A stretch of DNA of 64,000 nt from NCBI GenBank assembly GCA_964019135.1, contig OZ025263.1:32466133-32530132 (forward strand), read 5' to 3'. This stretch comes from Arenicola marina. Taxonomy: Eukaryota > Annelida > Polychaeta > Arenicolidae. The notes beneath the pieces are model-generated. The model made no database searches. It saw nothing but the letters and a program-made list of their open reading frames with translations, and was not told the origin of the DNA. The position numbers and the translations under genes are program-made. This document shows positions 1 through 63,899 of this stretch, one piece after another; position 1 is the first letter of the stretch; every line of letters begins with the position of its first letter.

Positions 1-104
1 ATACAACTTTATCATTTTATGTTTAAAGGAAACGTATTGTCTAGAATGAAACGGGCGTAAAATAAACTCTAACTTCTGAAACGTCACTTTATAAGCGACA
101 TTGG

Positions 105-117
105 CGATAATATATCG
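105..117. repeat. Small intronic palindrome CGATA-ATA-TATCG, one per unit
   Basis: A perfect 5 bp inverted repeat with a 3 bp spacer lies about 93 bp upstream of each exon. It is conserved in nearly all units even though neighbouring bases vary (CATTGGCG, CATCGGCG or CATGGGCG just before it). Damaged copies are rare: TATGTCG about 100 bp upstream of exon 42, and TATCCATT before exon 155. It may be a protein site, a replication or recombination site, or simply inherited sequence. Confidence 0.45.
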
Positions 118-155
118 ATTCTCAGCAGCTCAAAGTAGGATTGTAAGTCTGTATG

Positions 156-169
156 CTGATTCTTTTGAT
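156..169 (+). other. Candidate branch points CTGAT and TTGAT (representative)
   Basis: Two sequences fitting the loose animal branch-point pattern lie upstream of the acceptor. CTGAT has its A 52 nt before the first exon base, and TTGAT has its A 43 nt before it. Both distances are plausible. CTGAT is lost in some units (for example GCAGATTC before exons 35 and 49), whereas TTGAT is nearly invariant. Exon 49's unit has TTGATGAGC in place of TTGATAAGC but keeps the TTGAT core. This is a motif match only; the true branch site is untested. Confidence 0.4.
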
Positions 170-193
170 AACCACGTATGGTGCAGCGTTGTA

Positions 194-210
194 TTCTCTT
201 TCCACCATAG
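194..210 (+). other. Splice acceptor with pyrimidine tract (representative of all units)
   Basis: The tract TTCTCTTTCCACCATAG directly precedes each exon. The terminal AG is kept in all units I read. The tract itself varies only slightly: TATTATC in exons 16, 20, 24, 32, 45, 47, 62 and 77; TATTGTC in exons 124 and 129; TTCTGAT in exon 12; CCATCATAG in exon 9; CCACTATAG in exon 141. An upstream GCAG (184-186 here) could serve as an in-phase alternative acceptor, adding 24 bp. In 33 units, however, that extra segment contains an in-frame TAG, so the downstream AG is preferred. Confidence 0.75.
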
Positions 211-369
211 TGGCGAGTACGACTAGCGCAACCAGCGCCAGCACCACTGCGGAGAGCACCACCAGCTTGACAACCCCAACAACAGTCTCGGAAACCACAA
301 GCACCGGAACCAGTGGGACGACGACAACTCCCACCACTGTCACCCCGACCACCAGTGAGTCAACAACAG
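211..369 (+). CDS. Reference exon 1 of the window (53-codon mucin repeat, phase 1-1)
   Basis: This exon is described in detail as the model for all others. The first two bases complete a Val codon and the last base opens the next Val codon. Residues 2-22 are Ala/Ser/Thr-rich with Glu15 and Leu20. Residues 23-32 contain Pro23, Val26 and Glu28. Residues 33-40 hold Gly33, Gly36 and four successive Thr (37-40). Residues 41-53 contain Pro41, Val44, Pro46 and Glu50, then end Ser-Thr-Thr. The net charge is about -3. The consensus has no Asn-X-Ser/Thr sequon, so the expected modification is O-linked glycan on the 37 Ser/Thr. The exon is visibly GC-richer than the introns on both sides. It matches the consensus protein and differs from most copies only by silent changes (ACA at Thr24, TCA at Ser51). 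Confidence 0.75.
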
Positions 370-3300
370 GTCAGTGATACAACTTTATCATTTTATGTTT
401 AAAGGAAACGTATTTTCTAGAAGGAAACGGGCGTAAAACTCTAACTTCTTAAACGTCACTTTATAAGCGACATTGGCGATAATATATCGATTCTCAGCAG
501 CTCAATGCAGGAATGTAAGTCTGTATGCTGATTCTTTTGATAAGCACGTATGGTGCAGCGTTGTGTTCTCTTTCCACCATAGTGGCGAGTACGACTAGCG
601 CAACCAGCGCCAGCACCACTACGGAGAGCACCACCAGCTTGACAACCCCAACGACAGTCTCGGAAACCACAAGCACCGGAACCAGTGGGACGACGACAAC
701 TCCCACCACTGTCACCCCGACCACCAGTGAGTCCACAACAGGTCAGTGATAAAACTTTATCATTTTATGTTTAAAGGAAACGTATTGTCTAGAATGAAAC
801 GGGCGTCAAATAAACTCTAACTTCTTAAACGTCACTTTATAAGCGACATCGGCGATAATATATCGATTCTCAGCAGCTCAATGCAGGAATGTAAGTCTGT
901 ATGCTGATTCTTTTGATAAGCACGTATGGTGCAGCGTTGTATTCTCTTTCCACCATAGTGGCGAGTACGACTAGCGCAACCAGCGCCAGCACCACTGCGG
1001 AGAGCACCACCAGGTTGACAACTCCAACGACAGTCTCGGAAACCACAAGCACCGGAACCAGTGGGACGACGACAACTCCCACCACTGTCACCCCGACCAC
1101 CAGTGAGTCCACAACAGGTCAGTGATAGAACTTTATCATTTTATGTTTAAAGGAAACGTATTGTCTAGAAGGAAACCGGCGTAAAACTCTAACTTCTTAA
1201 ACGTCACTTTATAAGCGACATCGGCGATAATATATCGATTCCCAGCAGCTCAAAGTAGGATTGTAAGTCTGTATGCTGATTCTTTTGATAAGCACGTATG
1301 GTGCAGCGTTGTATTCTCTTTCCACCATAGTGGCGAGTACGACTAGCGCAACCAGCGCCAGCACCACTGCGGAGGGCACCACCAGCTTGACAACCCCAAC
1401 GACAGTCTCGGAAACCACAAGCACCGGGACCAGTGGGACGACGACAACTCCCACCACTGTCACTCCGACCACCAGTGAGTCCACAACAGGTCAGTGATAC
1501 AACTTTATCATTTTATGTTTAAAGGAAACGTATTGTCTAGAAGGAAACGGGCGTAGAACAAACTCTAACTTCTTAAACGTCACTTTATAAGCGACATCGG
1601 CGATAATATATCGATTCTCAGCAGCTCAATGTAGGAATGTAAGTCTGTATGGTGATTCTTTTGATAAGCACGTATGGTGCAGCGTTGTATTCTCTTTCCA
1701 CCATAGTGGCGAGTACGACTAGCGCAACCAGCGCCAGCACCACTGCGGAGAGCACCACCAGCTTGATAACCCCAACAACAGTCTCGGAAACCACAAGCAC
1801 CGGAACCAGTGGAACGACGACAACTCCCACCACTGTCACCCCGACCACCAGTGAGTCAACAACAGGTCTGTGATACAACTTTATCATTTTATGTTTAAAG
1901 GAAACGTATTGTCTAGAATGAAACGGGCGTAAAATACACTCTAAGTTCTTAAACGTCACTTTATGAGCGACATTGGCGATAATATATCGATTCTCAGCAG
2001 CTCAAAGTAGGATTGTAAGTCTGTATGCTGATTTTTTTGATAAGCACGTATGGTGCAGCGTTGTATTCTCTTTCCACCATAGTGGCGAGTACGACTAGCG
2101 CAACCAGCGCCAGCACCACTGCGGAGAGCACCACCAGCTTGACAACCCCAACAACAGTCTCGGAAACCACAAGCACCGGAACCAGTGGGACGACGACAAC
2201 TCCCACCACTGTCACCCCGACCACCAGTGAGTCAACAACAGGTCTGTGATACAACTTTATCATTTTATGTTTAAAGGAAACGTATTGTCTAGAAGGAAAC
2301 GGGCGTAAAATACACTCTAACTTCTTAAACGTCACTTTATCAGCGACATTGGCGATAATATATCGATTCTCAGCAGCTCAAAGTAGGATTGTAAGTCTGT
2401 ATGCTGATTCTTTTGATAAGCACGTATGGTGCAGCGTTGTATTCTCTTTCCACCATAGTGGCGAGTACGACTAGCGCAACCAGCGCCAGCACCACTGCGG
2501 AGAGCATCACCAGCTTGACAACCCCAACGACAGCCTCGGAAACCACAAGCACCGGAACCAGTGGGACGACGACAACTCCCACCACTGTCACCCCGACCAC
2601 CAGTGAGTCAACAACAGGTCTGTGATACAACTTTATCATTTTATGTTTAAAGGAAACGTATTGTCTAGAAGGAAACGGGCGTAAAACTCTAACTTCTTAA
2701 ACGTCACTTTATAAGCGACATTGGCGATAATATATCGATTCTCAGCAGCTCAAAGTAGGATTGTAAGTCTGTATGCTGATTCTTTTGATAAGCACGTATG
2801 GTGCAGCGTGGTATTCTCTTTCCACCATAGTGGCGAGTACGACTAGCGCAACCAGCGCCAGCACCACTGCGGAGAGCACCACCAGCTTGACAACCCCAAC
2901 GACAGTCTCGGAAACCACAAGCACCGGAACCAGTGGGACGACGACAACTCCCACCACTGTCACCCCGACCACCAGTGAGTCCACAACAGGTCAGTGATAG
3001 AACTTTATCATTTTATGTTTAAAGGAAACGTATTGTCTAGAATGAAACGGGCGTAAAATAAACTCTAACTTCTTAAACGTCACTTTATAAGCGACATCGG
3101 CGATAATATATCGATTCTCAGCAGCTCAAAGTAGGATTGTAAGTCTGTATGGTGATTCTTTTGATAACCACGTATGGTGCAGCGTTGTATTCTCTTTCCA
3201 TCATAGTGGCGAGTACGACTAGCGCAACCAGCGCCAGCACCACTGCGGAGAGCACCACCAGCTTGACAAAGCCAACGACAGTCTCGGAAACCACAAGCAC

Positions 3301-4109
3301 CGGAACCAGTGGGACGACGACAACTCCCACCACTGTCACCCCGACCACCAGTGAGTCAACAACAGGTCAGTGATACAACTTTATCATTTTATGTGTAAAG
3401 GAAACGTATTGTCTAGAATGAAACGGGCGTAAAACCCTAACTTCTTAAACGTCACTTTATAAGCGACATCGGCGATAATATATCGATTCTCATCAGCTCA
3501 AAGTAGGATTGCAAGTCTGTATGCTGATTCTTTTGATAAGCACGTATGGTGCAGCGTTGTATTCTCTTTCCACCATAGTGGCGAGTACGACTAGCGCAAC
3601 CAGCGCCAGCACCACTGCGGAGAGCACCACCAGCTTGACAACCCCAACGACAGTCTCGGAAACCACAAGTACCGGAACCAGTGGGACGACGACAACTCCC
3701 ACCACTGTCACCCCGACCACCAGTGAGTCCACAACAGGTCAGTGATACAACTTCATCATGTTATGTTTAAAGGAAACGTATTGTCTAGAAGGAAACGGGC
3801 GTAAAACTCTAACTTCTTAAACGTCACTTTATAAGCGACATTGGCGATAATATATCGATTCTCAGCAGCTCAAAGTAGGATTGTAAGTCTGTATGCTGAT
3901 TCTTTTGATAAGCACGTATGGTGCAGCGTAGTATTCTCTTTCCACCATAGTGGCGAGTACGACTAGCGCAACCAGCGCCAGCACCACTGCGGAGAGCACC
4001 ACCAGCTTGACAACCCCAACGACAGTCTCGGAAACCACAAGCACCGGAACCAGTGGGACGACGACAACTCCCACCACTGTCACCCCGACCACCAGTGAGT
4101 CAACAACAG
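211..4109 (+). CDS. Exons 1-11: diverged left part of the array
   Basis: Exon starts are 211, 583, 959, 1331, 1707, 2083, 2459, 2831, 3207, 3579 and 3951, all 159 bp. This block has the highest density of private amino-acid changes: Ala14Thr (exon 2), Ser19Arg (3), Ser16Gly (4), Thr21Ile (5), Thr17Ile with Val26Ala (7) and Thr22Lys (9). It also has private silent changes, such as ACT at Thr22 in exon 3 and GGG at Gly33 in exon 4. Exons 5-7 share the donor GTCTGT. The recurrent unit types that dominate later (Thr48Ile, Ser3Gly) are absent. Reduced homogenisation suggests that the left edge of the array is near. All eleven reading frames stay open. Confidence 0.72.
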
Positions 4110-7100
4110 GTCAGTGATACAACTTGATCATTTTATGTTTAAAGGAAACGTATTGTCTAGAATGAAACGGGCGTAAAATGAACTCTAACTTCTTAAACGT
4201 CACTTTATAAGCGACATCGGCGATAATATATCGATTCTCAGCAGCTCAAAGTAGGAATGTAAGTCTGTATGCTGATTCTTTTGATAAACACGTATGGTGC
4301 AGCGTTGTATTCTGATTCCACCATAGTGGCGAGTACGACTAGCGCAACCAGCGCCAGCACCACTGCGGAGAGCACCACCAGCTTGACAACCACGACGACA
4401 GTCTCGGAAACCACAAGCACCGGAATCAGTGGCACGACGACAACTCCCACCACTGTCACCCCGACCACCAGTGAGTCCACAACAGGTCAGTGATACAACT
4501 TTATCATTTTATGTTTAAAGGAAACGTATTGTCTAGGATGAAACGGGCGTAAAACAAACTCTAACTTCTTAAACGTCACTTTATAAGCGACATCGGCGAT
4601 AATATATCGATTCTCAGCAGCTCAAAGTAGGATTGTAAGTCTGTATGCTGATTCTTTTGATAAGCACGTATGGTGCAGCGTTGTATTCTCTTTCCACCAT
4701 AGTGGCGAGTACGACTAGCGCAACCAGCGCCAGCACCACTGCGGAGAGCACCACCAGCTTGACAACCCCAACGACAGTCTCGGAAACCACAAGCACCGGA
4801 ACCAGTGGGACGACGACAACTCCCACCACTGTCACCCAGACCACCAGTGAGTCTACAACAGGTCAGTGATACAACTTTATCATTTTATGTTTAAAAGAAA
4901 TGTATTGTCTAGAATGAAACGGGCGTAAAATAAACTCTAACTTCTTAAACGTCACTTTATAAGCGATATCGGCGATAATATATCGATTCTCAGCAGCTCA
5001 AAGTAGGATTGTAAGTCTGTATGGTGATTCTTTTGATAAGCACGTATGGTGCAGCGTTGTATTCTCTTTCCACCATAGTGGCGAGTACGACTAGCGCAAC
5101 CAGCGCCAGCACCACTGCGGAGAGCACCACCAGCTTGACAACCCCAACGACAGTCTCGGAAAACACAAGCACCGGAACCAGTGGGACGACGACAACTCCC
5201 ACCACTGTCACCCCGACCACCAGTGAGTCCACAACAGGTCAGTGATACAACTTCATCATTTTATGTTTAAAGGAAACGTATTGTCTAGAAGGAAACGGGC
5301 GTAAAACTCTAACTTCTTAAACGTCACTTTATAAGCGACATTGGCGATAATATATCGATTCTCAGCAGCTCAAAGTAGGAATGTAAGTCTGTATGCTGAT
5401 TCTTTTGATAAGCACGTATGGTGCAGCGTAGTATTCTCTTTCCACCATAGTGGCGAGTACGACTAGCGCAACCAGCGCCAGCACCACTGCGGAGAGCACC
5501 ACCAGCTTGACAACCCCAACGACAGTCTCGGAAACCACAAGCACCGGAACCAGTGGCACGACGACAACTCCCACCACTGTCACCCCGACCACCAGTGAGT
5601 CAACAACAGGTCAGTGATACAACTTTATCATTTTATGTTTAAAGGAAACGTATTGTCTAGAATGAAACGGGCGTAAAATGAACTCTATCTTCTTAAACGT
5701 CACTTTATAAGCGACATCGGCGATAATATATCGATTCTCAGCAGCTCAAAGTAGGAATGTAAGTCTGTATGCTGATTCTTTTGATAAGCACATATGGTGC
5801 AGCGTTGTATTATCTTTCCACCATAGTGGCGAGTACGACTAGCGCAACCAGCGCCAGCACCACTGCGGAGAGCACCACCAGCTTGACAACCCCGACGACA
5901 GTCTCGGAAACCACAAGGACCGGAACCAGTGGCACGACGACAACTCCCACCACTGTCACCCCGACCACCAGTGAGTCCACAACAGGTCAGTGATACAACT
6001 TTATCATTTTATGTTTAAAGGAAACGTATTGTCTAGGATGAAACGGGCGTAAAACAAACTCTAAGTTCTTAAACGTCACTTTATAAGCGACATCGGCGAT
6101 AATATATCGATTCTCAGCAGCTCAAAGTAGGATTGTAAGTCTGTATGCTGATTCTTTTGATAAGCACGTATGGTGCAGCGTTGTATTCTCTTTCCACCAT
6201 AGTGGCGAGTACGACTAGCGCAACCAGCGCCAGCACCACTGCGGAGAGCACCACCAGCTTGACAACCCCAACGACAGTCTCGGAAACCACAAGCACCGGA
6301 ACCAGTGGCACGACGACAACTCCCACCACTGTCACCCAGACCACCAGTGAGTCTACAACAGGTCAGTGATACAACTTTATCATTTTATGTTTAAAAGAAA
6401 TGTATTGTCTAGAATGAAACGGGCGTAAAATAAACTCTAACTTCTTAAACGTCACTTTATAAGCGATATCGGCGATAATATATCGATTCTCAGCAGCTCA
6501 AAGTAGGATTGTAAGTCTGTATGGTGATTCTTTTGATAAGCACGTATGGTGCAGCGTTTTATTCTCTTTCCACCATAGTGGCGAGTACGACTAGCGCAAC
6601 CAGCGCCAGCACCACTGCGGAGAGCACCACCAGCTTGACAACCCCAACGACAGTCTCGGAAAACACAAGCACCGGAACCAGTGGGACGACGACAACTCCC
6701 ACCACTGTCACCCCGACCACCAGTGAGTCTACAACAGGTCAGTGATACAACTTCATCATTTTATGTTTAAAGGAAACGTATTGTCTAGAAGGAAACGGGC
6801 GTAAAACTCTAACTTCTTAAACGTCACTTTATAAGCGACATTGGCGATAATATATCGATTCTCAGCAGCTCAAAGTAGGAATGTAAGTCTGTATGCTGAT
6901 TCTTTTGATAAGCACGTATGGTGCAGCGTAGTATTCTCTTTCCACCATAGTGGCGAGTACGACTAGCGCAACCAGCGCCAGCACCACTGCGGAGAGCACC
7001 ACCAGCTTGACAACCCCAACGACAGTCTCGGAAACCACAAGCACCGGAACCAGTGGGACGACGACAACTCCCACCACTGTCACCCCGACCACCAGTGAGT

Positions 7101-13100: not shown

Positions 13101-16100
13101 CCACAACAGGTCAGTGATACAACTTTATCATTTTATGTTTAAAGGAAACGTATTGTCTAGAATGAAACGGGCGTAAAATAAACTCTAACTTCTTAAACGT
13201 CACTTTATAAGCGACATCGGCGATAATATATCGATTCTCAGCAGCTCAAAGTAGGATTGTAAGTCTGTATGCTGATTCTTTTGATAAGCACGTATGGTGC
13301 AGCGTTGTATTCTCTTTCCACCATAGTGGCGAGTACGACTAGCGCAACCAGCGCCAGCACCACTGCGGAGAGCACCACCAGCTTGACAACCCCAACGACA
13401 GTCTCGGAAACCACAAGCACCGGAACCAGTGGCACGACGACAACTCCCACCACTGTCACCCCGACCACCAGTGAGTCCACAACAGGTCAGTGATACAACT
13501 TTATCATTTTATGTGTAAAGGAAACGTATTGTCTAGAATGAAACGGGCGTAAAACCCTAACTTCTTAAACGTCACTTTATAAGCGACATCGGCGATAATA
13601 TATCGATTCTCAGCAGCTCAAAGTAGGATTGCAAGTCTGTATACTGATTCTTTTGATAAGCACGTATGGTGCAGCGTTGTATTCTCTTTCCACCATAGTG
13701 GCGGGTACGACTAGCGCAACCAGCGCCAGCACCACTGCGGAGAGCACCACCAGCTTGACAACCCCAACGACAGTCTCGGAAACCACAAGCACCGGAACCA
13801 GTGGGACGACGACAACTCCCACCACTGTCACCCCGACCACCAGTGAGTCCACAACAGGTCAGTGATACAACTTTATCATTTTATGTTTAAAGGAAACGTA
13901 TTGTCTAGAAGGAAACGGGCGTAAAACTCTAACTTCTTAAACGTCACTTTATAAGCGACATTGGCGATAATATATCGATTCTCAGCAGCTCAAAGTAGGA
14001 ATTTAAGTCTGTATGCTGATTCTTTTGATAAGCACGTATGGTGCAGCGTAGTATTCTCTTTCCACCATAGTGACGAGTACGACTAGCGCAACCAGCGCCA
14101 GCACCACTGCGGAGAGCACCACCAGCTTGACAACCCCAACGACAGTCTCGGAAACCACAAGCACCGGAACCAGTGGGACGACGACAACTCCCACCACTGT
14201 CACCCCGACCACCAGTGAGTCAACAAAAGGTCAGTGATACAACTTTATCATTTTATGTGTAAAGGAAACGTATTGTCTAGAATGAAACGGGCGTAAAATA
14301 AACTCTAACTTCTTAAACGTCACTTTATAAGCGACATCGGCGATAATATATCGATTTTCAGCAGCTCAAAGTAGGATTGCAAGTCTGTATGCTGATTCTT
14401 TTGATAAGCACGTATGGTGCAGCGTTGTATTCTCTTTCCACCATAGTGGCGAGTACGACTAGCGCAACCAGCGCCAGCACCACTGCGGAGAGCACCACCA
14501 GCTTGACAACCCCAACGACAGTCTCGGAAACCACAAACACCGGAACCAGTGGGACGACAACTCCCACCACTGTCACCCCGACCACCAGTGAGTCCACAAC
14601 AGGTCAGTGATACAACTTTATCATTTTATGTTTAAAGGAAACGTATTGTCTAGAAGGAAACGGGCGTAAAACTCTAACTTCTTAAACGTCACTTTATAAG
14701 CGACATTGGCGATAATATATCGATTCTCAGCAGCTCAAAGTAGGAATGTAAGTCTGTATGCTGATTCTTTTGATAAGCACGTATGGTGCAGCGTTGTATT
14801 CTCTTTCCACCATAGTGGCGAGTACGACTAGCGCAACCAGCGCCAGCACCACTGCGGAGAGCACCACCAGCTTGACAACCCCAACGACAGTCTCGGAAAC
14901 CACAAGCACCGGAACCAGTTGGACGACGACAACTCCCACCACTGTAACCCCGACCACCAGTGAGTCCACAACAGGTCAGTGATACAACTTTATCATTTTA
15001 TGTGTAAAGGAAACGTATTGTCTAGAATGAAACGGGCGTAAAACCCTAACTTCTTAAACGTCACTTTATAAGCGACATCGGCGATAATATATCGATTCTC
15101 AGCAGCTCAAAGTAGGAATTTAAGTCTGTATGCTGATTCTTTTGATAAGCACGTATGGTGCAGCGTAGTATTCTCTTTCCACCATAGTGGCGAGTACGAC
15201 TAGCGCAACCAGCGCCAGCACCACTGCGGAGAGCACCACCAGCTTGACAACCCCAACGACAGTCTCGGAAACCACAAGCACCGGAACCAGTGGGACGACG
15301 ACAACTCCCACCACTGTCACCCCGACCACCAGTGAGTCAACAACAGGTCAGTGATACAACTTTATCATTTTATGTGTAAAGGAAACGTATTGTCTAGAAT
15401 GAAACGGGCGTAAAACCGTAACTTCTTAAACGTCACTTTATAAGCGACATCGGCGATAATATGTCGATTTTCAGCAGCTCAAAGTAGGATTGCAAGTCTG
15501 TATGCTGATTCTTTTGATAAGCACGTATGGTGCAGCGTTGTATTCTCTTTCCACCATAGTGGCGAGTACGACTAGCGCAACCAGCGCCAGCACCACTGCG
15601 GAGAGCACCACCAGCTTGACAACCCCAACGACAGTCTCGGAAACCACAAGCACCGGAACCAGTGGGACGACGACAACTCCCACCACTGTCACCCCGACCA
15701 CCAGTGAGTCCACAACAGGTCAGTGATACAACTTTATCATTTTATGTTTAAAGGAAACGTATTGTCTAGAAGGAAACGGGCGTAAAACTCTAACTTCTTA
15801 AACGTCACTTTATAAGCGACATTGGCGATAATATATCGATTCTCAGCAGCTCAATGTAGGAATGTAAGTCTGTATGCTGATTCTTTTGATAAGCACGTAT
15901 GGTGCAGCGTTGTATTCTCTTTCCACCATAGTGGCGAGTACGACTAGCGCAACCAGCGCCAGCACCACTGCGGAGAGCACCACCAGCTTGACAACCCCAA
16001 CGACAGTCTCGGAAACCACAAGCACCGGAACCAGTGGGACGACGACAACTCCCACCACTGTCACCCCGACCACCAGTGAGTCCACAACAGGTCAGTGATA

Positions 16101-55100: not shown

Positions 55101-58100
55101 GATAAGCACGTATGGTGCAGCGTTGTATTCTCTTTCCACCATAGTGGCGAGTACGACTAGCGCAACCAGCGCCAGCACCACTGCGGAGAGCACCACCAGC
55201 TTGACAACCCCAACGACAGTCTCGGAAACCACAAGCACCGGAACCAGTGGGACGACGACAACTCCCACCACTGTCACCCCGACCACCAGTGAGTCCACAA
55301 CAGGTCAGTGATACAACTTTATCATTTTATGTTTAAAGGAAACGTATTGTCTAGAAGGAAACGGGCGTAAAACTCTAACTTCTTAAACGTCACTTTATAA
55401 GCGACATTGGCGATAATATATCGATTCTCAGCAGCTCAATGTAGGAATGTAAGTCTGTATGCTGATTCTTTTGATAAGCACGTATGGCGCAGCGTTGTAT
55501 TCTCTTTCCACCATAGTGGCGAGTACGACTAGCGCAACCAGCGCCAGCACCACTGCGGAGAGCACCACCAGCTTGACAACCCCAACGACAGTCTCGGAAA
55601 CCACAAGCACCGGAACCAGTGGGACGACGACAACTCCCACCACTGTCACCCCGACCACCAGTGAGTCCACAACAGGTCAGTGATACAACTTTATCATTTT
55701 ATGTTTAAAGGAAACGTATTGTCTAGAAGGAAACGGGCGTAAAACTCTAACTTCTTAAACGTCACTTTATAAGCGACATTGGCGATAATATATCGATTCT
55801 CAGCAGCTCAATGTAGGAATGTAAGTCTGTATGCTGATTCTTTTGATAAGCACGTATGGTGCAGCGTTGTATTCTCTTTCCACCATAGTGGCGAGTACGA
55901 CTAGCGCAACCAGCGCCAGCACCACTGCGGAGAGCACCACCAGCTTGACAACCCCAACGACAGTCTCGGAAACCACAAGCACCGGAACCAGTGGCACGAC
56001 GACAACTCCCACCACTGTCACCCCGACCACCAGTGAGTCCACAACAGGTCAGTGATACAACTTCATCATTTTATGTTTAAAGGAAACGTATTGTCTAGAA
56101 GGAAACTGGCGTAAAACTCTAACTTCTTAAACGTCACTTTATAAGCGACATCGGCGATAATATATCGATTCTCAGCAGCTCAAAGTAGGATTGTAAGTCT
56201 GTATGGTGATTCTTTTGATAAGCACGTATGGTGCAGTGTTGTATTCTCTTTCCACCATAGTGGCGAGTACGACTAGCGCAACCAGCGCCAGCACCACTGC
56301 GGAGAGCACCACCAGCTTGACAACCCCAACGACAGTCTCGGAATCCACAAGCACCGGAACCAGTGGGACGACGACAACTCCCACCACTGTCACCCCGACC
56401 ACCAGTGAGTCCACAACAGGTCAGTGATACAACTTTATCATTCTATGTTTAAAGGAAACGTATTGTCTAGAAGGAAACGGGCGTAAAATAAACTCTAACT
56501 TCTTAAACGTCACTTTATAAGCGACATCGGCGATAATATATCGATTCTCAGCAGCTCAAAGTAGGATTGTAAGTCTGTATGCTGATTCTTTTGATAAGCA
56601 CGTATGGTGCAGCGTTGTATTCTCTTTCCACCATAGTGGCGAGTACGACTAGCGCAACCAGCGCCAGCACCACTGCGGAGAGCACCACCAGCTTGACAAC
56701 CCCAACGACAGTCTCGGAAACCACAAGCACCGGAACCAGTGGCACGACGACAACTCCCACCACTGTCACCCCGACCACCAGTGAGTCAACAACAGGTCAG
56801 TGATACAACTTTATCATTTTATGTGTAAAGGAAACGTATTGTCTAGAATGAAACGGGCGTAAAACCCTAACTTCTTAAACGTCACTTTATAAGCGACATC
56901 GGCGATAATATATCGATTTTCAGCAGCTCAAAGTAGGATTGAAAGTCTGTATGCTGATTCTTTTGATAAGCACGTATGGTGCAGCGTTGTATTCTCTTTC
57001 CACCATAGTGGCGAGTACGACTAGCGCAACCAGCGCCAGCACCACTGCGGAGAGCACCACCAGCTTGACAACCCCAACGACAGTCTCGGAAACCACAAGC
57101 ACCGGAACCAGTGGGACGACGACAACTCCCACCACTGTCACCCCGACCACCAGTGAGTCCACAACAGGTCAGTGATACAACTTTATCATTTTATGTTTAA
57201 AGGAAACGTATTGTCTAGGATGAAACGGGCGTAAAACAAACTATAACTTCTTAAACGTCACTTTATAAGCGACATCGGCGATAATATATCGATTCTCAGC
57301 AGCTCAAAGTAGGATTGTAAGTCTGTATGCTGATTCTTTTGATAAGCACGTATGGTGCAGTGTTGTATTCTCTTTCCACCATAGTGGCGAGTACGACTAG
57401 CGCAACCAGCGCCAGCACCACTGCGGAGAGCACCACCAGCTTGACAACCCCAACGACAGTCTCGGAAACCACAAGCACCGGAACCAGTGGGACGACGACA
57501 ACTCCCACCACTGTCACCCCGACCACCAGTGAGTCCACAACAGGTCAGTGATACAACTTTATCATTTTATGTTTAAAGGAAACGTATTGTCTAGAAGGAA
57601 ACGGGCGTAAAACTCTAACTTCTTAAACGTCACTTTATAAGCGACATTGGCGATAATATATCCATTCTCAGCAGCTCAAAGTAGGAATGTAAGTCTGTAT
57701 GCTGATTCTTTTGATAAGCACGTATGGTGCAGCGTAGTATTCTCTTTCCACCATAGTGGCGAGTACGACTAGCGCAACCAGCGCCAGCACCACTGCGGAG
57801 AGCACCACCAGCTTGACAACCCCAACGACAGTCTCGGAAACCACAAGCACCGGAACCAGTGGGACGACGACAACTCCCACCACTGTCACCCCGACCACCA
57901 GTGAGTCAACAACAGGTCAGTGATACAACTTTATCATTTTATGTGTAAAGGAAACGTATTGTCTAGAATGAAACGGGCGTAAAACCCTAACTTCTTAAAC
58001 GTCACTTTATAAGCGACATTGGCGATAATATATCGATTCTCAGCAGCTCAAAGTAGGATTGCAATTCTGTATGCTGGTTCTTTTGATAAGCACGTATGGT

Positions 58101-61100
58101 GCAGCGTAGTATTCTCTTTCCACCATAGTGGCGAGTACGACTAGCGCAACCAGCGCCAGCACCACTGCGGAGAGCACCACCAGCTTGACAACCCCAACGA
58201 CAGTCTCGGAAACCACAAGCACCGGAACCAGTGGGACGACGACAACTCCCACCACTGTCACCCCGACCACCAGTGAGTCCACAACAGGTCAGTGATACAA
58301 CTTCATCATTTTATGTTTAAAGGAAACGTATTGTCTAGAAGGAAACGGGCGTAAAATAAACTCTAACTTCTTAAACGTCACTTTATAAGCGACATCGGCG
58401 ATAATATATCGATTCTCAGCAGCTCAAAGTAGGATTGTAAGTCTGTATGCTGATTCTTTTGATAAGCACGTATGGTGCAGCGTTGTATTCTCTTTCCACC
58501 ATAGTGGCGAGTACGACTAGCGCAACCAGCGCCAGCACCACTGCGGAGAGCACCACCAGCTTGACAACCCCAACGACAGTCTCGGAAACCACAAGCACCG
58601 GAACCAGTGGGACGACGACAACTCCCACCACTGTCACCCCGACCACCAGTGAGTCCACAACAGGTCAGTGATACAACTTTATCATTTTATGTTTAAAGGA
58701 AACGTATTGTCTAGAAGGAAACGGGCGTAAAACTCTAACTTCTTAAACGTCACTTTATAAGCGACATTGGCGATAATATATCGATTCTCAGCAGCTCAAT
58801 GTAGGAATGTAAGTCTGTATGCTGATTCTTTTGATAAGCACGTATGGTGCAGCGTTGTATTCTCTTTCCACCATAGTGGCGAGTACGACTAGCGCAACCA
58901 GCGCCAGCACCACTGCGGAGAGCACCACCAGCTTGACAACCCCAACGACAGTCTCGGAAACCACAAGCACCGGAACCAGTGGCACGACGACAACTCCCAC
59001 CACTGTCACCCCGACCACCAGTGAGTCCACAAGAGGTCAGTGATACAACTTCATCATTTTATGTTTAAAGGAAACGTATTGTCTAGAAGGAAACTGGCGT
59101 AAAACTCTAACTTCTTAAACGTCACTTTATAAGCGACATTGGCGATAATATATCGATTCTCAGCAGCTCAATGTAGGAATGTAAGTCTGTATGCTGATTC
59201 TTTTGATAAGCACGTATGGTGCAGCGTTGTATTCTCTTTCCACCATAGTGGCGAGTACGACTAGCGCAACCAGCGCCAGCACCACTGCGGAGAGCACCAC
59301 CACCTTGACAAACCCAACGACAGTCTCGGAAACCACAAGCACCGGAACCAGTGGGACGACGACAACTCCCACCACTGTAACCCCGACCATCAGTGAGTCC
59401 ACAACAGGTCAGTGATAAAACTTTATCATTTTATGTTTAAAGGAAACGTATTGTCTAGAATGAAACGGGCGTAAAATAAACTCTAACTTCTTAAACGTCA
59501 CTTTATAAGCGACATCGGCGATAATATATCGATTCTCAGCAGCTCAAAGTAGGATTGTAAGTCTGTATGCTGATTCTTTTGATCAGCACGTATGGTGCAG
59601 CGTTGTATTCTCTTTCCACCATAGTGGCGAGTACGACTAGCGCAACCAGCGCCAGCACCACTGCGGAGAGCACCACCAGCTTGACAACCCCAACGACAGT
59701 CTCGGAAACCACAAGCACCGGAACCAGTGGGACGACGACAACTCCCACCACTGTCACCCCGACCACCAGTGAGTCCACAACAGGTCAGTGATACAACTTT
59801 ATCATTTTATGTGTAAAGGAAACGTGTTGTCTAGAATGAAACGGGCGTAAAACCCTAACTTCTTAAACGTCACTTTATAAGCGACATCGGCGATAATATA
59901 TCGATTCTCAGCAGCTCAAAGTAGGATTGCAAGTCTGTATGCTGATTCTTTTGATAAGCACGTATGGTGCAGCGTTGTATTCTCTTTCCACCATAGTGGC
60001 GGGTACGACTAGCGCAACCAGCGCCAGCACCACTGCGGAGAGCACCACCAGCTTGACAACCCCAACGACAGTCTCGGAAACCACAAGCACCGGAACCAGT
60101 GGGACGACGACAACTCCCACCACTGTCACCCCGACCACCAGTGAGTCCACAACAGGTCAGTGATACAACTTTATCATTTTATGTTTAAAGGAAACGTATT
60201 GTCTAGAAGGAAACGGGCGTAAAACTCTAACTTCTTAAACGTCACTTTATAAGCGACATTGGCGATAATATATCGATTCTCAGCAGCTCAAAGTAGGAAT
60301 GTAAGTCTGTATGCTGATTCTTTTGATAAGCACGTATGGTGCAGCGTAGTATTCTCTTTCCACCATAGTGGCGAGTACGACTAGCGCAACCAGCGCCAGC
60401 ACCACTGCGGAGAGCACCACCAGCTTGACAACCCCAACGACAGTCTCGGAAACCACAAGCACCGGAACCAGTGGGACGACGACAACTCCCACCACTGTCA
60501 CCCCGACCACCAGTGAGTCAACAACAGGTCAGTGATACAACTTTATCATTTTATGTGTAAAGGAAACGTATTGTCTAGGATGAAACGGGCGTAAAACAAA
60601 CTCTAACTTCTTAAACGTCACTTTATAAGCGACATCGGCGATAATATATCGATTCTCATCAGCTCAAAGTAGGATTGTAAGTCTGTATGCTGATTCTTTT
60701 GATAAGCACGTATGGTGCAGCGTTGTATTCTCTTTCCACCATAGTGGCGAGTACGACTAGCGCAACCAGCGCCAGCACCACTGCGGAGAGCACCACCAGC
60801 TTGACAACCCCAACGACAGTCTCGGAAACCACAAGCACCGGAACCAGTGGCACGACGACAACTCCCACCACTGTCACCCCGACCACCAGTGAGTCCACAA
60901 CAGGTCAGTGATACAACTTTATCATTTTATGTTTAAAAGCAACGTATTGTCTAGAATGAAACGGGCGTAAAATAAACTCTAACTTCTTAAACGTCACTTT
61001 ATGAGCGACATCGGCGATAATATATCGATTCTCAGCAGCTCAAAGTAGGATTGTAAGTCTGTATGCTGATTCTTTTGATAAGCACGTATGGTGCAGCGTT

Positions 61101-63899
61101 GTATTCTCTTTCCACCATAGTGGCGAGTACGACTAGCGCAACCAGCGCCAGCACCACTGCGGAGAGCACCACCAGCTTGACAACCCCAACGACAGTCTCG
61201 GAAACCACAAGCACCGGAACCAGTGGGACGACGACAACTCCCACCACTGTCACCCCGACCACCAGTGAGTCCACAACAGGTCAGTGATACAACTTCATCA
61301 TTTTATGTTTAAAGGAAACGTATTGTCTAGAAGGAAACGGGCGTAAAATAAACTCTAACTTCTTAAACGTCACTTTATGAGCGACATCGGCGATAATATA
61401 TCGATTCTCAGCAGCTCAAAGTAGGATTGTAAGGCTGTATGCTGATTCTTTTGATAAGCACGTATGGTGCAGCGTTGTATTCTCTTTCCACCATAGTGGC
61501 GAGTACGACTAGCGCAACCAGCGCCAGCACCACTGCGGAGAGCACCACCAGCTTGACAACCCCAACGACAGTCTCGGAAACCACAAGCACCGGAACCAGT
61601 GGGACGACGACAACTCCCACCACTGTCACCCCGACCACCAGTGAGTCCACAACAGGTCAGTGATACAACTTTATCATTTTATGTTTAAAGGAAACGTATT
61701 GTCTAGAAGGAAACGGGCGTAAAACTCTAACTTCTTAAACGTCACTTTATAAGCGACATTGGCGATAATATATCGATTCTCAGCAGCTCAATGTAGGAAT
61801 GTAAGTCTGTATGCTGATTCTTTTGATAAGCACGTATGGTGCAGCGTTGTATTCTCTTTCCACCATAGTGGCGAGTACGACTAGCGCAACCAGCGCCAGC
61901 ACCACTGCGGAGAGCACCACCAGCTTGACAACCCCAACGACAGTCTCGGAAACCACAAGCACCGGAACCAGTGGCACGACGACAACTCCCACCACTGTCA
62001 ACCCGACCACCAGTGAGTCCACAAGAGGTCAGTGATACAACTTCATCATTTTATGTTTAAAGGAAACGTATTGTCTAGAAGGAAACTGGCGTAAAACTCT
62101 AACTTCTTAAACGTCACTTTATAAGCGACATCGGCGATAATATATCGATTCTCAGCAGCTCAAAGTAGGATTGTAAGTCTGTATGCTGATTCTTTTGATA
62201 AGCACGTATGGTGCAGCGTGGTATTCTCTTTCCACCATAGTGGCGAGTACGACTAGCGCAACCAGCGCCAGCACCACTGCGGAGAGCACCACCAGCTTGA
62301 CAACCCCAACGACAGTCTCGGAAACCACAAGCACCGGAACCAGTGTGACGACGACAACTCCCACCACTGTAACCCCGACCACCAGTGAGTCCACAACAGG
62401 TCAGTGATAAAACTTTATCATTTTATGTTTAAAGGAAACGTATTGTCTAGAATGAAACGGGCGTAAAATAAACTCTAACTTCTTAAACGTCACTTTATAA
62501 GCGACATCGGCGATAATATATCGATTCGCAGCAGCTCAAAGTAGGATTGTAAGTCTGTATGCTGATTCTTTTGATAAGCACGTATGGTGCAGCGTTGTAT
62601 TCTCTTTCCACCATAGTGGCGAGTACGACTAGCGCAACCAGCGCCAGCACCACTGCGGAGAGCACCACCAGCTTGACAACCCCAACGACAGTCTCGGAAA
62701 CCACAAGCACCGGAACCAGTGGGACGACGACAACTCCCACCACTGTCACCCCGACCACCAGTGAGTCCACAACAGGTCAGTTGTACAACTTTATCATTTT
62801 ATGTTTAAAGGAAACGTATTGTCTAGAAGGAAACGGGCGTAAAATAAACTCTAACTTCTTAAACGTCACTTTATAAGCGACATCGGCGATAATATATCGA
62901 TTCTCAGCAGCTCAAAGTAGGAATGTAAGTCTGTATGCTGATTCTTTTGATAAGCACGTATGGTGCAGCGTTGTATTCTCTTTCCACCATAGTGGCGAGT
63001 ACGACTAGCGCAACCAGCGCCAGCACCACTGCGGAGAGCACCACCAGCTTGACAACCCCAACGACAGTCTCGGAAACCACAAGCACCGGAACCAGTGGGA
63101 CGACGACAACTCCCACCACTGTAACCCCGACCATCAGTGAGTCCACAACAGGTCAGTGATAAAACTTTATCATTTTATGTTTAAAGGAAACGTATTGTCT
63201 AGAATGAAACGGGCGTAAAATAAACTCTAACTTCTTAAACGTCACTTTATAAGCGACATCGGCGATAATATATCGATTCTCAGCAGCTCAAAGTAGGATT
63301 GTAAGTCTGTATGCTGATTCTTTTGATAAGCACGTATGGTGCAGCGTGGTATTCTCTTTCCACCATAGTGGCGAGTACGACTAGCGCAACCAGCGCCAGC
63401 ACCACTGCGGATAGCACCACCAGCTTGACAACCCCAACGACAGTCTCGGAAACCACAAGCACCGGAACCAGTGGCACGACGACAACTCCCACCACTGTCA
63501 CCCCGACCACCAGTGAGTCCACAACAGGTCAGTGATACAACTTTATCATTTTATGTGTAAAGGAAACGTATTGTCTAGAATGAAACGGGCGTAAAACCCT
63601 AACTTCTTAAACGTCACTTTATAAGCGACATCGGCGATAATATATCGATTCTCATCAGCTCAAAGTAGGATTGCAAGTCTGTATGCTGATTCTTTTGATA
63701 AGCACGTATGGTGCAGCGTTGTATTCTCTTTCCACCATAGTGGCGGGTACGACTAGCGCAACCAGCGCCAGCACCACTGCGGAGAGCACCACCAGCTTGA
63801 CAACCCCAACGACAGTCTCGGAAACCACAAGCACCGGAACCAGTGGGACGACGACAACTCCCACCACTGTCACCCCGACCACCAGTGAGTCCACAACAG
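211..63899 (+). CDS. Giant mucin-like protein, partial: 171 tandem phase-1 exons (no start or stop in window)
   Basis: This model joins 171 exons, one per repeat unit. Each is 159 bp except exon 39 (156 bp), giving 9,062 codons with no stop. The exon starts after a pyrimidine-rich tract ending CCATAG and ends at CAG before GTCAGT. Both ends are phase 1: the last G of one exon plus TG of the next make Val1. The consensus 53-mer has 26 Thr, 11 Ser, 4 Ala, 3 Pro, 3 Val, 3 Glu, 2 Gly and 1 Leu, with no Cys, Lys, Arg, Asn or aromatic residue. This is typical of densely O-glycosylated mucin domains, so an extracellular role is inferred. No folded domain, signal peptide or anchor is in the window. 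Because the exons are symmetrical, any number can be skipped or duplicated without a frameshift. Retaining an intron ends translation within three codons (GGT CAG TGA) in nearly every unit. The family beyond 'mucin-like' is not recognised. The block entries below list every exon start. Confidence 0.75.
367..375 (+). other. Splice donor CAG|GTCAGT (representative of all units)
   Basis: The exon ends in CAG and the intron begins GTCAGT. This matches the major-class donor except for C at +3, where A or G is preferred. The site is nearly constant across the array. Exceptions are GTCTGT after exons 5, 6 and 7, the ideal GTGAGT after exon 44, GAG| before GT in the eight Thr53Arg exons, and AAG| in exon 38. 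The intron's first codons in the exon frame are GGT CAG TGA, so unspliced message terminates at once. Confidence 0.75.
370..582 (+). other. Representative intron, 213 bp class
   Basis: This intron is an AT-rich GT-AG spacer between identical phase-1 exons. In order it holds the donor, a stretch around TTTATCATTTTATG, a direct repeat of AGGAAACG about 20 bp apart around an XbaI-type TCTAGA, the length-variable GCGTAAAA segment, TTATAAGCGACA, the palindrome CGATA-ATA-TATCG, the branch-point region and the acceptor. There are three length classes: 213 bp (93 introns), 217 bp (74) and 212 bp (3). The sequence after GCGTAAAA falls into discrete types (ATAAACTC, ACAAACTC, ATGAACTC, CTC, CCCTAAC, CCGTAAC) that mark unit lineages. 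No conserved reading frame crosses it. Confidence 0.7.
4327..12737 (+). CDS. Exons 12-34: block with a 1,500 bp four-exon higher-order repeat
   Basis: Exon starts are 4327, 4703, 5079, 5451, 5827, 6203, 6579, 6951, 7327, 7703, 8079, 8451, 8827, 9203, 9579, 9951, 10327, 10703, 11079, 11451, 11827, 12203 and 12579. Exon 12 carries Pro23Thr and Thr34Ile. Pro46Gln occurs in exons 13, 17 and 28. Thr29Asn (which creates an Asn-Thr-Ser sequon) is in exons 14, 18, 22 and 29. Ser31Arg is in exons 16, 20 and 24. Thr48Ile first appears in exon 27. The introns before exons 15, 19, 23 and 31 carry the TAG variant just upstream of the acceptor. The order Pro46Gln, Thr29Asn, TAG-intron, Ser31Arg repeats every 1,500 bp. 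Confidence 0.74.
4703..9202 (+). repeat. 1,500 bp four-unit higher-order repeat, three periods
   Basis: Exons 13, 17, 21 and 25 start exactly 1,500 bp apart (376+376+372+376). Rare markers recur at that period. The intron sequence TTAAAAGAAATG follows exons 13 and 17 and becomes TTAAAAGAAACG after exon 21. GCGATATCGGCG precedes exons 14, 18 and 22. CACATATGGTG precedes exons 16 and 20. The third period has lost Pro46Gln, suggesting exchange with another unit. A partial echo (Pro46Gln, Thr29Asn, then a TAG unit two further on) is at exons 28-31. Confidence 0.85.
12951..25050 (+). CDS. Exons 35-67: mixed block with first Thr48Ile/Ser3Gly cassettes
   Basis: Exon starts are 12951, 13327, 13699, 14071, 14447, 14816, 15188, 15560, 15932, 16304, 16680, 17052, 17428, 17804, 18176, 18552, 18924, 19296, 19668, 20040, 20416, 20788, 21160, 21532, 21904, 22276, 22648, 23024, 23400, 23776, 24148, 24520 and 24892. 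All are 159 bp except exon 39 (156 bp). Changes are Thr48Ile in 35, 49 and 54; Ser3Gly in 37, 51, 56 and 65; Ala2Thr and Thr53Lys in 38; Ser31Asn in 39; Gly36Trp in 40; Thr34Ala in 45 and 62; Ser31Arg, Pro46Thr and Glu50Gly in 47; Thr29Asn in 49; Thr32Ile in 63. TAG-type introns precede 38, 41, 44, 52, 61 and 66. Exon 44 has the array's only GTGAGT donor. Confidence 0.74.
14447..14602 (+). CDS. Exon 39: 156 bp variant with a 3 bp in-frame deletion
   Basis: This is the only exon in the window whose length is not 159 bp. One of the ACG/ACA Thr codons at positions 37-40 is missing (GGGACGACAACT instead of GGGACGACGACAACT), leaving three Thr in a row. The exon stays phase 1-1, so the reading frame of the whole protein is unaffected. 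It also carries Ser31Asn, which does not make a sequon because Gly33 occupies the third position. Introns in the same array tolerate 1 and 4 bp indels, so the single exon indel being a codon multiple supports translation. Confidence 0.75.
16304..16468 (+). CDS. Exon 44 with consensus donor GTGAGT
   Basis: The exon (16304-16462) encodes the consensus repeat. Its donor at 16463-16468 is GTGAGT, the ideal major-class sequence, whereas almost every other unit has GTCAGT. The single C-to-G change at +3 should raise U1 pairing, so this exon may be included more efficiently. The upstream intron carries the TAG variant. Finding a splice-consensus base precisely at the proposed donor agrees with the exon model but is one substitution and could be chance. 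Confidence 0.7.
17428..17586 (+). CDS. Exon 47: most substituted exon of the central array
   Basis: This exon carries Ser31Arg, Pro46Thr and Glu50Gly together. The Glu50Gly codon arose by two adjacent base changes (GAG to GGA), which also create a GGATCC hexamer unique among the units read. The Ser31Arg and CCG-Pro23 markers link it to exons 16, 20 and 24 about 8.5-11.5 kb to the left, implying a copied or displaced member of the 1,500 bp higher-order repeat. It remains open with intact splice sites (AG at 17426-17427, GTCAGT from 17587). Confidence 0.72.
24300..28560 (+). repeat. 2,606 bp seven-unit segmental duplication
   Basis: Units 66-69 recur as units 73-76 with a constant offset of 2,606 bp (exon starts 24520/27126, 24892/27498, 25264/27870, 25635/28241). 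Shared rare features are the GGAATTTAAG plus TAG intron before 66 and 73, and the 1 bp intron deletion before 69 and 76. The 5' half of unit 70 also matches unit 77 (CACTTGATAAG, AAAATGAACTC), but its 3' half does not. That places an exchange breakpoint near 25,950-26,000. A shorter offset of 1,119 bp relates units 68-69 to 71-72. Confidence 0.75.
25264..29527 (+). CDS. Exons 68-79: block marked by 1 bp intron deletions
   Basis: Exon starts are 25264, 25635, 26011, 26383, 26754, 27126, 27498, 27870, 28241, 28617, 28993 and 29369. Changes are Pro23Ser in exon 74, Thr34Ala in 77, and Thr5Ile with Thr47Ala in 78. The introns before exons 69, 72 and 76 are 212 bp because CACTTTATAAG is reduced to CACTTATAAG, always together with CATGGGCG. 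This shared 1 bp loss is a good lineage marker. Exon 73's upstream intron carries TAG, and the intron before exon 70 is chimeric. Coding frames are unaffected. Confidence 0.74.
29741..41843 (+). CDS. Exons 80-112: repeated Thr48Ile / Ser3Gly / TAG cassettes
   Basis: Exon starts are 29741, 30117, 30489, 30861, 31237, 31613, 31985, 32357, 32729, 33101, 33477, 33853, 34225, 34597, 34969, 35345, 35721, 36093, 36465, 36837, 37209, 37581, 37957, 38329, 38701, 39073, 39445, 39821, 40197, 40569, 40941, 41313 and 41685. Thr48Ile is in 80, 84, 89 and 110; Ser3Gly in 82, 86, 92, 99 and 111; Thr53Arg in 102 and 109. Single changes are Thr21Ala (87), Ser16Asn (103, a new Asn-Thr-Thr sequon), Thr4Ala (104), Ser49Asn (106, a new Asn-Glu-Ser sequon) and Thr24Met (110). 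TAG introns precede 83, 87, 88, 93, 94, 100, 103-106, 109 and 112. Units 103-106 are four consecutive TAG types. Confidence 0.74.
41860..43345 (+). repeat. 748 bp two-unit tandem duplication
   Basis: Units 113-114 and 115-116 are near-identical at an offset of 748 bp (exon starts 42057/42805 and 42433/43181). They share the paired rare codons AGG at position 11 and TCG at position 46, CTCATCAGCTC in the second unit's intron, and CGATTTTCAGCAG in the first unit's intron. One visible difference is TCA in exon 114 against TCC in exon 116 at Ser51. This looks like a very recent exchange. Confidence 0.85.
42057..45959 (+). CDS. Exons 113-123: block with Ser11Arg/Pro46Ser pair and Thr45Asn exons
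   Basis: Exon starts are 42057, 42433, 42805, 43181, 43557, 43933, 44305, 44681, 45057, 45429 and 45801. Exons 114 and 116 share Ser11Arg and Pro46Ser. Exon 118 has Glu15Gly, Thr45Asn and Thr53Arg; exon 119 has Gly33Glu, Thr45Asn and Thr53Arg. Exons 120-123 form one standard cassette (Thr48Ile, consensus, Ser3Gly, then a TAG intron before 123). Thr45Asn is followed by Pro, so it does not create an N-glycosylation sequon. All eleven exons are open. Confidence 0.74.
46000..49745 (+). repeat. 1,868 bp five-unit tandem duplication
   Basis: Units 124-128 and 129-133 match at a constant offset of 1,868 bp. Markers shared in order are AAAACCTTAAC and TATTGTC (first unit), CTAACTTTTTAAAC and Ser11Arg (second), TTCATCATTTTATGTGTAAAG (third), CAATGCAGG and Thr53Arg (fourth), and GGAATCCACAAG (fifth). 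The left copy starts after GTGTAAAG while the right copy starts after GTTTAAAG. The exchange junction therefore lies between about 47,845 and 47,900, inside the intron upstream of exon 129. Confidence 0.88.
46173..49695 (+). CDS. Exons 124-133: two copies of a five-exon block
   Basis: Exon starts are 46173, 46549, 46925, 47297, 47669, then 48041, 48417, 48793, 49165 and 49537. Ser11Arg is in 125 and 130, Thr53Arg in 127 and 132, and Thr29Ser in 128 and 133. Exon 133 adds Thr32Pro, the only clear coding difference between the two copies. The pyrimidine tract of 124 and 129 reads TATTGTCTTTCC. No TAG introns occur in this block. Confidence 0.75.
49909..59035 (+). CDS. Exons 134-158: cassettes plus a three-unit duplication
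   Basis: Exon starts are 49909, 50285, 50657, 51029, 51401, 51777, 52153, 52525, 52897, 53269, 53645, 54021, 54393, 54769, 55145, 55517, 55889, 56261, 56637, 57009, 57385, 57757, 58129, 58505 and 58877. Thr48Ile is in 134 and 139; Ser3Gly in 136 and 141; Ser16Thr in 137; Thr29Ser in 151; Thr53Arg in 158. TAG introns precede 137, 142, 143, 145, 146, 155 and 156. Exon 135 has GTCAGTAAT at its donor (G to A at +7). Exons 144, 147, 148, 149 and 150 encode the plain consensus repeat. Confidence 0.74.
53060..55310 (+). repeat. 1,124 bp three-unit duplication with a chimeric junction unit
   Basis: Units 143-144 recur as 146-147 at an offset of 1,124 bp. They share AAGGAAACGGGCGTAAAACC (an unusual pairing of types), GCAATTCTG and CTTTATGAGCG. 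Unit 145 begins like unit 148 (AAAATAAACTC, GGATTGTAAG) and ends like unit 142 (GCGTAGTATTC, TCA at Ser51). It is therefore the crossover junction, placed within about 53,960-54,000. Confidence 0.78.
59249..63899 (+). CDS. Exons 159-171: right-hand block of the window
   Basis: Exon starts are 59249, 59625, 59997, 60369, 60745, 61121, 61497, 61869, 62241, 62617, 62993, 63369 and 63741. Exon 159 carries Ser19Thr, Thr22Asn and Thr48Ile. Ser3Gly is in 161 and 171. Exon 166 has Thr45Asn and Thr53Arg, 167 has Gly36Val, 169 has Thr48Ile and 170 has Glu15Asp. Exon 168's donor is GTCAGTTGT, which removes the immediate in-frame TGA; intron retention there would add 31 codons before a stop. Two full cassette starts (159-162 and 169-171) show that the array continues rightward with the same architecture. 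No terminal exon is present. Confidence 0.74.

Follow-up and report, generated by a model that had tools for sequence, protein, structure and literature searches.

The window, by which is meant the whole 64,000-bp stretch analysed (C18:32,466,133-32,530,132), very probably represents the interior of a very large mucin-type gene in which modular exons make up the glycosylation domain. Each module, 372 or 376 bp long, consists of an acceptor, a 159-bp exon coding for exactly one 53-residue repeat, and a donor. The exons would be transcribed as parts of one gene and spliced at the predicted sites, and the product would be secreted and O-glycosylated. Canonical splice signals and an open frame are found in 537 of the 540 modules read. 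In addition, there is coding constraint between two families of exons, open mucin-like sequence at both edges of the array, and an in-frame exon that is a recombinant of the two families, here called A and B.

According to TRF, the window is a single head-to-tail array (positions 1-64000) with a period of 372 bp, 171.3 copies and 96% matches. Splice-like anchors resolve it into 171 acceptors and 171 donors. The modules are spaced by 372 bp (92 times), 376 bp (74 times), 371 bp (3 times) or 369 bp (once), and the intron of the 376-bp units is 4 bp longer. The features, in positions of the window, are:

211..63899, + strand: window part of array A, 171 exon-intron modules with splice-like anchors
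211..369, + strand: first complete exon of the window, 159 bp, phase 1 at both ends, one 53-residue Ser/Thr-rich repeat
370..582, + strand: first complete intron of the window, GTCAGT ... CTTTCCACCATAG, 213 bp
14447..14602, + strand: the sole 156-bp exon in the window, with an in-frame 3-bp deletion
63741..63899, + strand: last complete exon of the window; array A runs on to C18:32,812,829

The AG, the GT and a G as the last base of the exon are present in all 171 units. The acceptor anchor used for the window itself held the AG (up to three substitutions were allowed); the recount over 264 kb described below used an anchor confined to the exon. The donors read GTCAGT in 167 units, GTCTGT in three and GTGAGT in one. 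No unit bears a stop, in agreement with the initial annotation, which had described at least 171 open exon modules running from a pyrimidine tract and AG to GT. The exon length of 159 bp given there holds for 170 of the exons, the remaining one being 156 bp long. When spliced, the window exons encode 9,062 residues, exactly as had been counted before, of which 6,261 (69%) are Ser or Thr, near the earlier figure of about 6,300, and 5.6% are Pro. The repeat peptides lack Cys, Phe, Tyr and His and contain hardly any Lys or Arg. They thus have the tandem repeats, very rich in Ser and Thr and containing Pro, by which mucins are recognised. All four Thr codons are used in the consensus exon (12 ACC, 6 ACA, 4 ACG and 4 ACT). 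A Pfam search with three joined repeats gave only one chance match (E 0.93, below its cut-off), and no known RNA family was found in window positions 1-6000 at E <= 1.

The openness of the frame was rejected as proof of coding. One reverse frame is likewise open in 171 of 171 window exons, and the forward frame survives in 33% of the dinucleotide shuffles made from the consensus exon. Nor are the 171 open exons 171 independent facts, because they comprise only 58 distinct sequences and 39 distinct peptides. The 70% Ser/Thr content of the open frame is not given by chance: 74% of 5,000 shuffles have some open forward frame, with a Ser/Thr maximum of 46%, and none reaches the real value. Two other ways of delimiting the exon were also rejected. 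Reading through the intron meets a stop in 536 of 536 units, and an alternative in-frame acceptor 24 bp upstream, at a fixed offset, lacks AG in 12 of the 536 units and introduces a stop into the extension in 33.

The genome searched comprises 867 Mb in 762 contigs. The window and the 200 kb upstream of it were read contiguously (264 kb, of which 202 kb is array A), and the downstream side was sampled. Array A extends from 32,328,158 to a hybrid exon that closes it at 32,812,829. It is 485 kb long, or about 7.6 times the window, and is part of a larger mucin locus. The 283 kb of array A past the window were mostly sampled by probes, and those inside the array were 18 of 18 between 32,535,000 and 32,800,500, together with those at 32,805,000 and 32,810,000.

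The contiguous 264 kb, window included, contain 540 units as counted by exon start, each preceded by AG (540/540). Donors were located in 538 units and are GT in 537 and AT in one (GTCAGT 520, GTCTGT 12, GTCGGT 3, GTCAGC 1, GTGAGT 1, ATCAGT 1). The two donor-less units are the first and the third of array A, at its 5' edge. The exons are 159 bp long in 534 cases and 156 bp long in four, have no frameshift and no stop, and fall into 150 distinct sequences. The spacings lie between 361 and 377 bp, except for two shorter ones at the left edge, and no unit was overlooked, because no gap is big enough to hide one. Position +3 of the donor is C in nearly all units of array A; C is a less common base at this position, and this was counted against the coding reading. 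From the mean spacing, array A is estimated to have about 1,296 units.

Across the whole genome, a 34-base acceptor-plus-exon pattern, allowing up to 3 mismatches, matches at 1,424 forward and 29 reverse sites, whereas the control has none; 540 matches are in the 264 kb. The 29 reverse matches are not among the matches listed. The forward total takes in one copy at 31.33 Mb and a displaced second array of the A module at C18:28,613,900-28,652,699. The left end of this displaced array is situated in mid-intron and abuts unrelated GACGTC-rich minisatellite DNA, showing that A modules can also move as plain satellite DNA. The displaced array might serve as an unconstrained control for the main one.

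These properties raise the question of whether a satellite captured a once-coding mucin exon and then expanded unused, the present array being untranscribed or unspliced. Such an origin would agree with the head-to-tail arrangement of units that are 96% similar, with the missing donors of the first and third units, and with the displaced array at C18:28.61-28.65 Mb lying against minisatellite DNA. It is nevertheless very unlikely in view of the constraint on the exons. The decisive evidence for coding comes from the comparison of the two exon families. The A and B exons have 72% identical bases, and the peptides of A and of B2, one of two B types, are 81% identical over 52 full codons. Thirty-two of the 44 differences between A and B2 are at third positions (Fisher p 9e-13, from rounded counts). 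The corresponding dN is 0.11 and dS is 2.3, giving a ratio of 0.048, a value that is rough because dS is saturated, while its direction is beyond doubt. The dN/dS ratios for A-B1 and B1-B2 are 0.068 and 0.069. The A and B introns, in contrast, are unalignable and have nothing in common beyond 7-base words.

Diversity within array A points in the same direction. The 536 interior units have a piS of 0.031, near the intron level of 0.037, and a piN of 0.0090, which gives a piN/piS of 0.29 (0.34 for the window alone); exon diversity as a whole is 2.4-fold below that of the intron. An unused satellite is also at odds with the 538 exons without frameshift or stop, with the open coding sequence that continues in phase at both edges, and with the joining of arrays A and B by an in-frame hybrid exon. 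However, when variants are counted as distinct events, the 536 A units show 36 synonymous and 95 nonsynonymous changes and no stops, against 57, 133 and 2.5 expected at the intron rate, and the window shows 19, 42 and none against 27, 63 and 1.4. Nonsynonymous changes in array A are thus not depleted relative to synonymous ones, as would be expected if the array were unused, and the absence of stops against 2.5 expected is weak evidence. Compared with expectation, nonsynonymous variants occur as often as synonymous ones while rare but seldom become common. The event counts weigh against claiming selection strongly for the present array A on its own. In a non-coding satellite all sites of the unit should vary alike, and this is not what piN/piS and the A-B dN/dS show, although the event counts by themselves do not show coding constraint within array A.

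Directly upstream of array A there are three mucin-like stop-to-stop open reading frames on the same strand, with 73-74% Ser/Thr. The predicted exons on this side are:

from C18:32,266,133, same strand as array A: mucin exon of at least 7,726 codons, its left end beyond the reading
C18:32,291,109-32,307,353, same strand as array A: mucin exon of 5,415 codons
C18:32,311,735-32,324,313, same strand as array A: mucin exon of 4,193 codons
C18:32,324,596-32,324,622, same strand as array A: 27-bp exon

Those with both ends known have lengths that are multiples of three, and none has a stop inside. At the exon ends seen, the intron falls behind the first base of a codon (phase 1), as it does in the A exons. 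The three mucin-like exons are themselves unusually long for single exons. Further upstream, an open Ser/Thr-rich forward frame (68-74%) was found by 10 of 10 probes from 32,170,000 to 32,260,399.

The downstream edge of array A is formed by the hybrid exon, which is followed by a second array and by Cys-rich exons:

C18:32,812,829-32,812,987: A/B hybrid exon, 159 bp, in frame, begins as A and goes on as family B
C18:32,812,829-32,959,473, same strand as array A: array B, paralogous 159-bp exons
C18:32,959,315-32,959,473: last B exon
C18:32,959,770-32,962,538: 923-codon mucin exon, 64% Ser/Thr, phase 1 at both ends, after the last B exon
C18:32,969,297-32,975,680: Cys-rich exons, downstream of the mucin part

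Array B has a period of 1,247-1,251 bp in most units read, with one step of 902 bp. Its unit has two exons, B1 and B2, separated by two intron types in alternation, short (about 190 bp) and long. In the 30.4 kb examined, strict motifs located 27 exons, all of them 159 bp long and none with stops. The start of the B exon has 237 forward and no reverse matches in the whole genome, which is close to the number expected for 147 kb with two exons in every 1,248 bp; the 100 matches listed of the 237 are all on C18 between 32.813 and 32.875 Mb. The 923-codon exon, which contains no stop, is followed by a long intron with minisatellite DNA, and then by the Cys-rich exon at 32,969,297 and more exons of this kind. 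Three of the Cys-rich modules matched no Pfam family above its cut-off, and one compared with the PDB matched no chain. A genome search with two of them returned only self-matches and a weak match to each other (E 0.68). By eye, the cysteine spacing recalls Ly6/uPAR domains, which may be taken as a lead only.

Both edges of array A therefore meet open mucin-like coding sequence in the strand and phase of the array. The earlier description of the window as a gene interior composed of phase-1 mucin exons is supported by these edges and by the independent paralogous family, with its dN/dS of 0.05-0.07 and its unalignable introns. Array edges lacking an open gene, named there as an outcome that would count against it, were not what was observed.

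All mucin exons across the locus whose ends were read are in phase 1, and the parts of the locus read share one strand. This argues against the view that internal promoters and poly(A) sites divide the locus, from the upstream exons through arrays A and B to the Cys-rich part at the 3' side, into several separate mucin genes or transcription units. Such a division is nonetheless conceivable, if unlikely, for a locus of about 0.8 Mb whose introns contain minisatellites, and the stop-bearing mucin-like probes at 32.15 and 32.16 Mb suggest decayed neighbours. In the parts of the locus read, which on the 3' side reached 6 kb past 32,970,399, neither the start codon, the signal peptide nor the stop codon of the gene was found.

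Several other observations concern the surroundings. The mucin-like sequences with in-frame stops, at C18:32,150,000 and 32,160,000, may be decayed remnants, either of neighbours or of the locus itself on its 5' side. Open, repetitive, coding-like sequence occurs at C18:32,110,000 and 32,130,000 (GQTASQTGQT-like and TTTETTTDQ-like) and might belong to further mucin genes. The minisatellites that fill introns of the locus differ from the array modules and are situated at 32,325,600-32,327,800 and 32,963,000-32,968,300 (TTATTTGAGCACATTTATAATATC-like and CATGGATCCCCCTTGGG-like).

On the preferred reading, unequal exchange and homogenisation would turn the array over at the DNA level as they do a satellite, and the encoded protein would be preserved, because in-register exchange between equal modules yields an in-frame product. 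Exchange between sister units would shift the copy number in steps of one exon. The gain, loss or skipping of a module keeps the frame, because the exons are divisible by three in length and have phase 1 on either side; frame-keeping changes are indeed observed in the 156-bp exons and in the A/B hybrid exon. The architecture tolerates errors in exon number and not retention of introns, because skips are in frame and read-through hits a stop in 536 of 536 units.

The same symmetry bears on what each message would contain. The gene may be real while each message carries a variable subset of modules, in which case the array is a length-variable store and does not encode one giant protein. This overlaps with the preferred explanation and is a serious possibility, somewhat short of an even chance. 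The length and phase of the exons put every skip in frame, and a similar proposal has been published for chicken Muc13 (PMC1552070). Use of a fixed subset is not favoured, however, as the splice signals are kept in nearly every module.

Genes with one exon per repeat have been described before. In chicken Muc13 the PTS domain has one repeat per exon and the exons are nearly identical, an arrangement supported by an EST (PMC1552070). The locus described here is alike in having one nearly identical exon for each mucin repeat; the chicken gene is reported to have at least 12 repeats of 20 residues, compared with about 1,296 plus 237 exons of 53 residues, and its described features include SEA and transmembrane domains. 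In the MaSp2 genes of Argiope, near-identical exon-intron modules have homogenised introns, and some of these genes alternate two intron types (PMC9779670), as array B does. The authors state that they are aware of no other eukaryotic gene with alternating homogenised introns (PMC9779670). MaSp2, however, is a silk and not a mucin. In the locus described here each module corresponds to one protein repeat with symmetric phase, and the introns are homogenised, their mean diversity over 536 units being 0.037.

Small repeated mucin exons in Schistosoma had been mentioned in the initial annotation: in the SmPoMuc genes of Schistosoma mansoni, exon 2 and its flanking introns are described as tandem genomic repeats of about 1 kb that undergo concerted evolution (PMC2576457). 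These genes differ from the present array in having a maximum of 20 repeats each and in forming a multigene family. MUC16 had been cited there as a mucin that keeps most of its repeats in large exons. This contrast is wrong: according to a review, human MUC16/CA125 has at least 60 repeats of 156 residues with SEA domains, encoded by five exons each (PMC3431878), and resembles the present locus in that tandem protein repeats are carried by repeated sets of exons. A 2026 preprint, in the part available, attributes a large repeat exon to all mucins (PMC13345508); large mucin exons are present here too, beside the small ones. Among the matches listed in a search from which the subscription literature mostly falls outside, there was no description of a mucin locus or exon array of this size. 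One-exon-per-repeat genes are already known; the new elements here are the size, the meeting of two arrays, and the occurrence of giant single exons alongside about 1,500 small ones.

The number of modules depends on the assembly, and arrays of such sizes are hard to assemble. The part of array A that was read (202 kb) contains exact 1,500-base repeats at 2,086 positions. It contains no exact 3,000-base repeat, and should therefore be resolvable by accurate long reads. Moreover, 397 of the 536 interior units have distinct sequences. It is consequently improbable that the copy number is a product of the assembly and that the real array is much shorter or longer. A higher-order repeat is not claimed for array A, since the mean distances between units at lags of 1-60 range only from 10.6 (lag 5) to 12.0.

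In its most extreme form, the single-gene reading calls for one animal gene whose transcript, covering at least 0.7 Mb, is spliced into a message of about 300 kb. This message would contain the whole coding satellite of symmetric, near-identical exons, about 1,500 in all (about 1,296 A and 237 B), as well as the mucin exons upstream with their 17,300 codons or more. At 53 residues each, the A and B exons would account for about 81,000 residues; those parts of the upstream exons that were read contribute a further 17,334 codons at least. The resulting mucin, at about 100,000 residues, would exceed titin in size, and its frame would be secured by the symmetry of the exons rather than by the fidelity of their inclusion. 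This is put forward tentatively and is rather doubtful as a whole.

The exons of titin are diverse. Other giants are an algal synthase with 45,212 residues and a predicted bacterial protein with 85,804. Titin has been called the largest known protein, with 363 exons and up to 38,000 residues (PMC5498329). It is likewise the product of a giant multi-exon gene; it is, however, not a mucin and has less than a quarter of the exon number estimated here. Mention is made of bacterial giant proteins that exceed those of eukaryotes (PMC11573180). Joined by splicing into a single message, the exons of the present locus would encode one of the largest proteins ever predicted. The locus would then be a natural test of the limits of splicing, with about four times the exon number of titin, near-identical introns and little sequence cue for order. 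It raises the questions of whether introns this similar are spliced out in their proper order, at what rate identical symmetric exons are left out of the message, and whether one satellite array can be driven by recombination and yet be under selection at the protein level. It also cautions that genes of this kind may be concealed as satellites by annotation pipelines and repeat maskers.

A further observation concerns the host, an animal that is probably an annelid. Contig C762 is mitochondrial. A search of it with ARAGORN under the bacterial code gave no tRNAs. It carries nad3, nad2, cox1, cox2, atp8 and cox3 in this order on one strand, with TGA read as Trp; cox1 was identified by a family search and the others by eye. 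The gene order looks like that of annelids.
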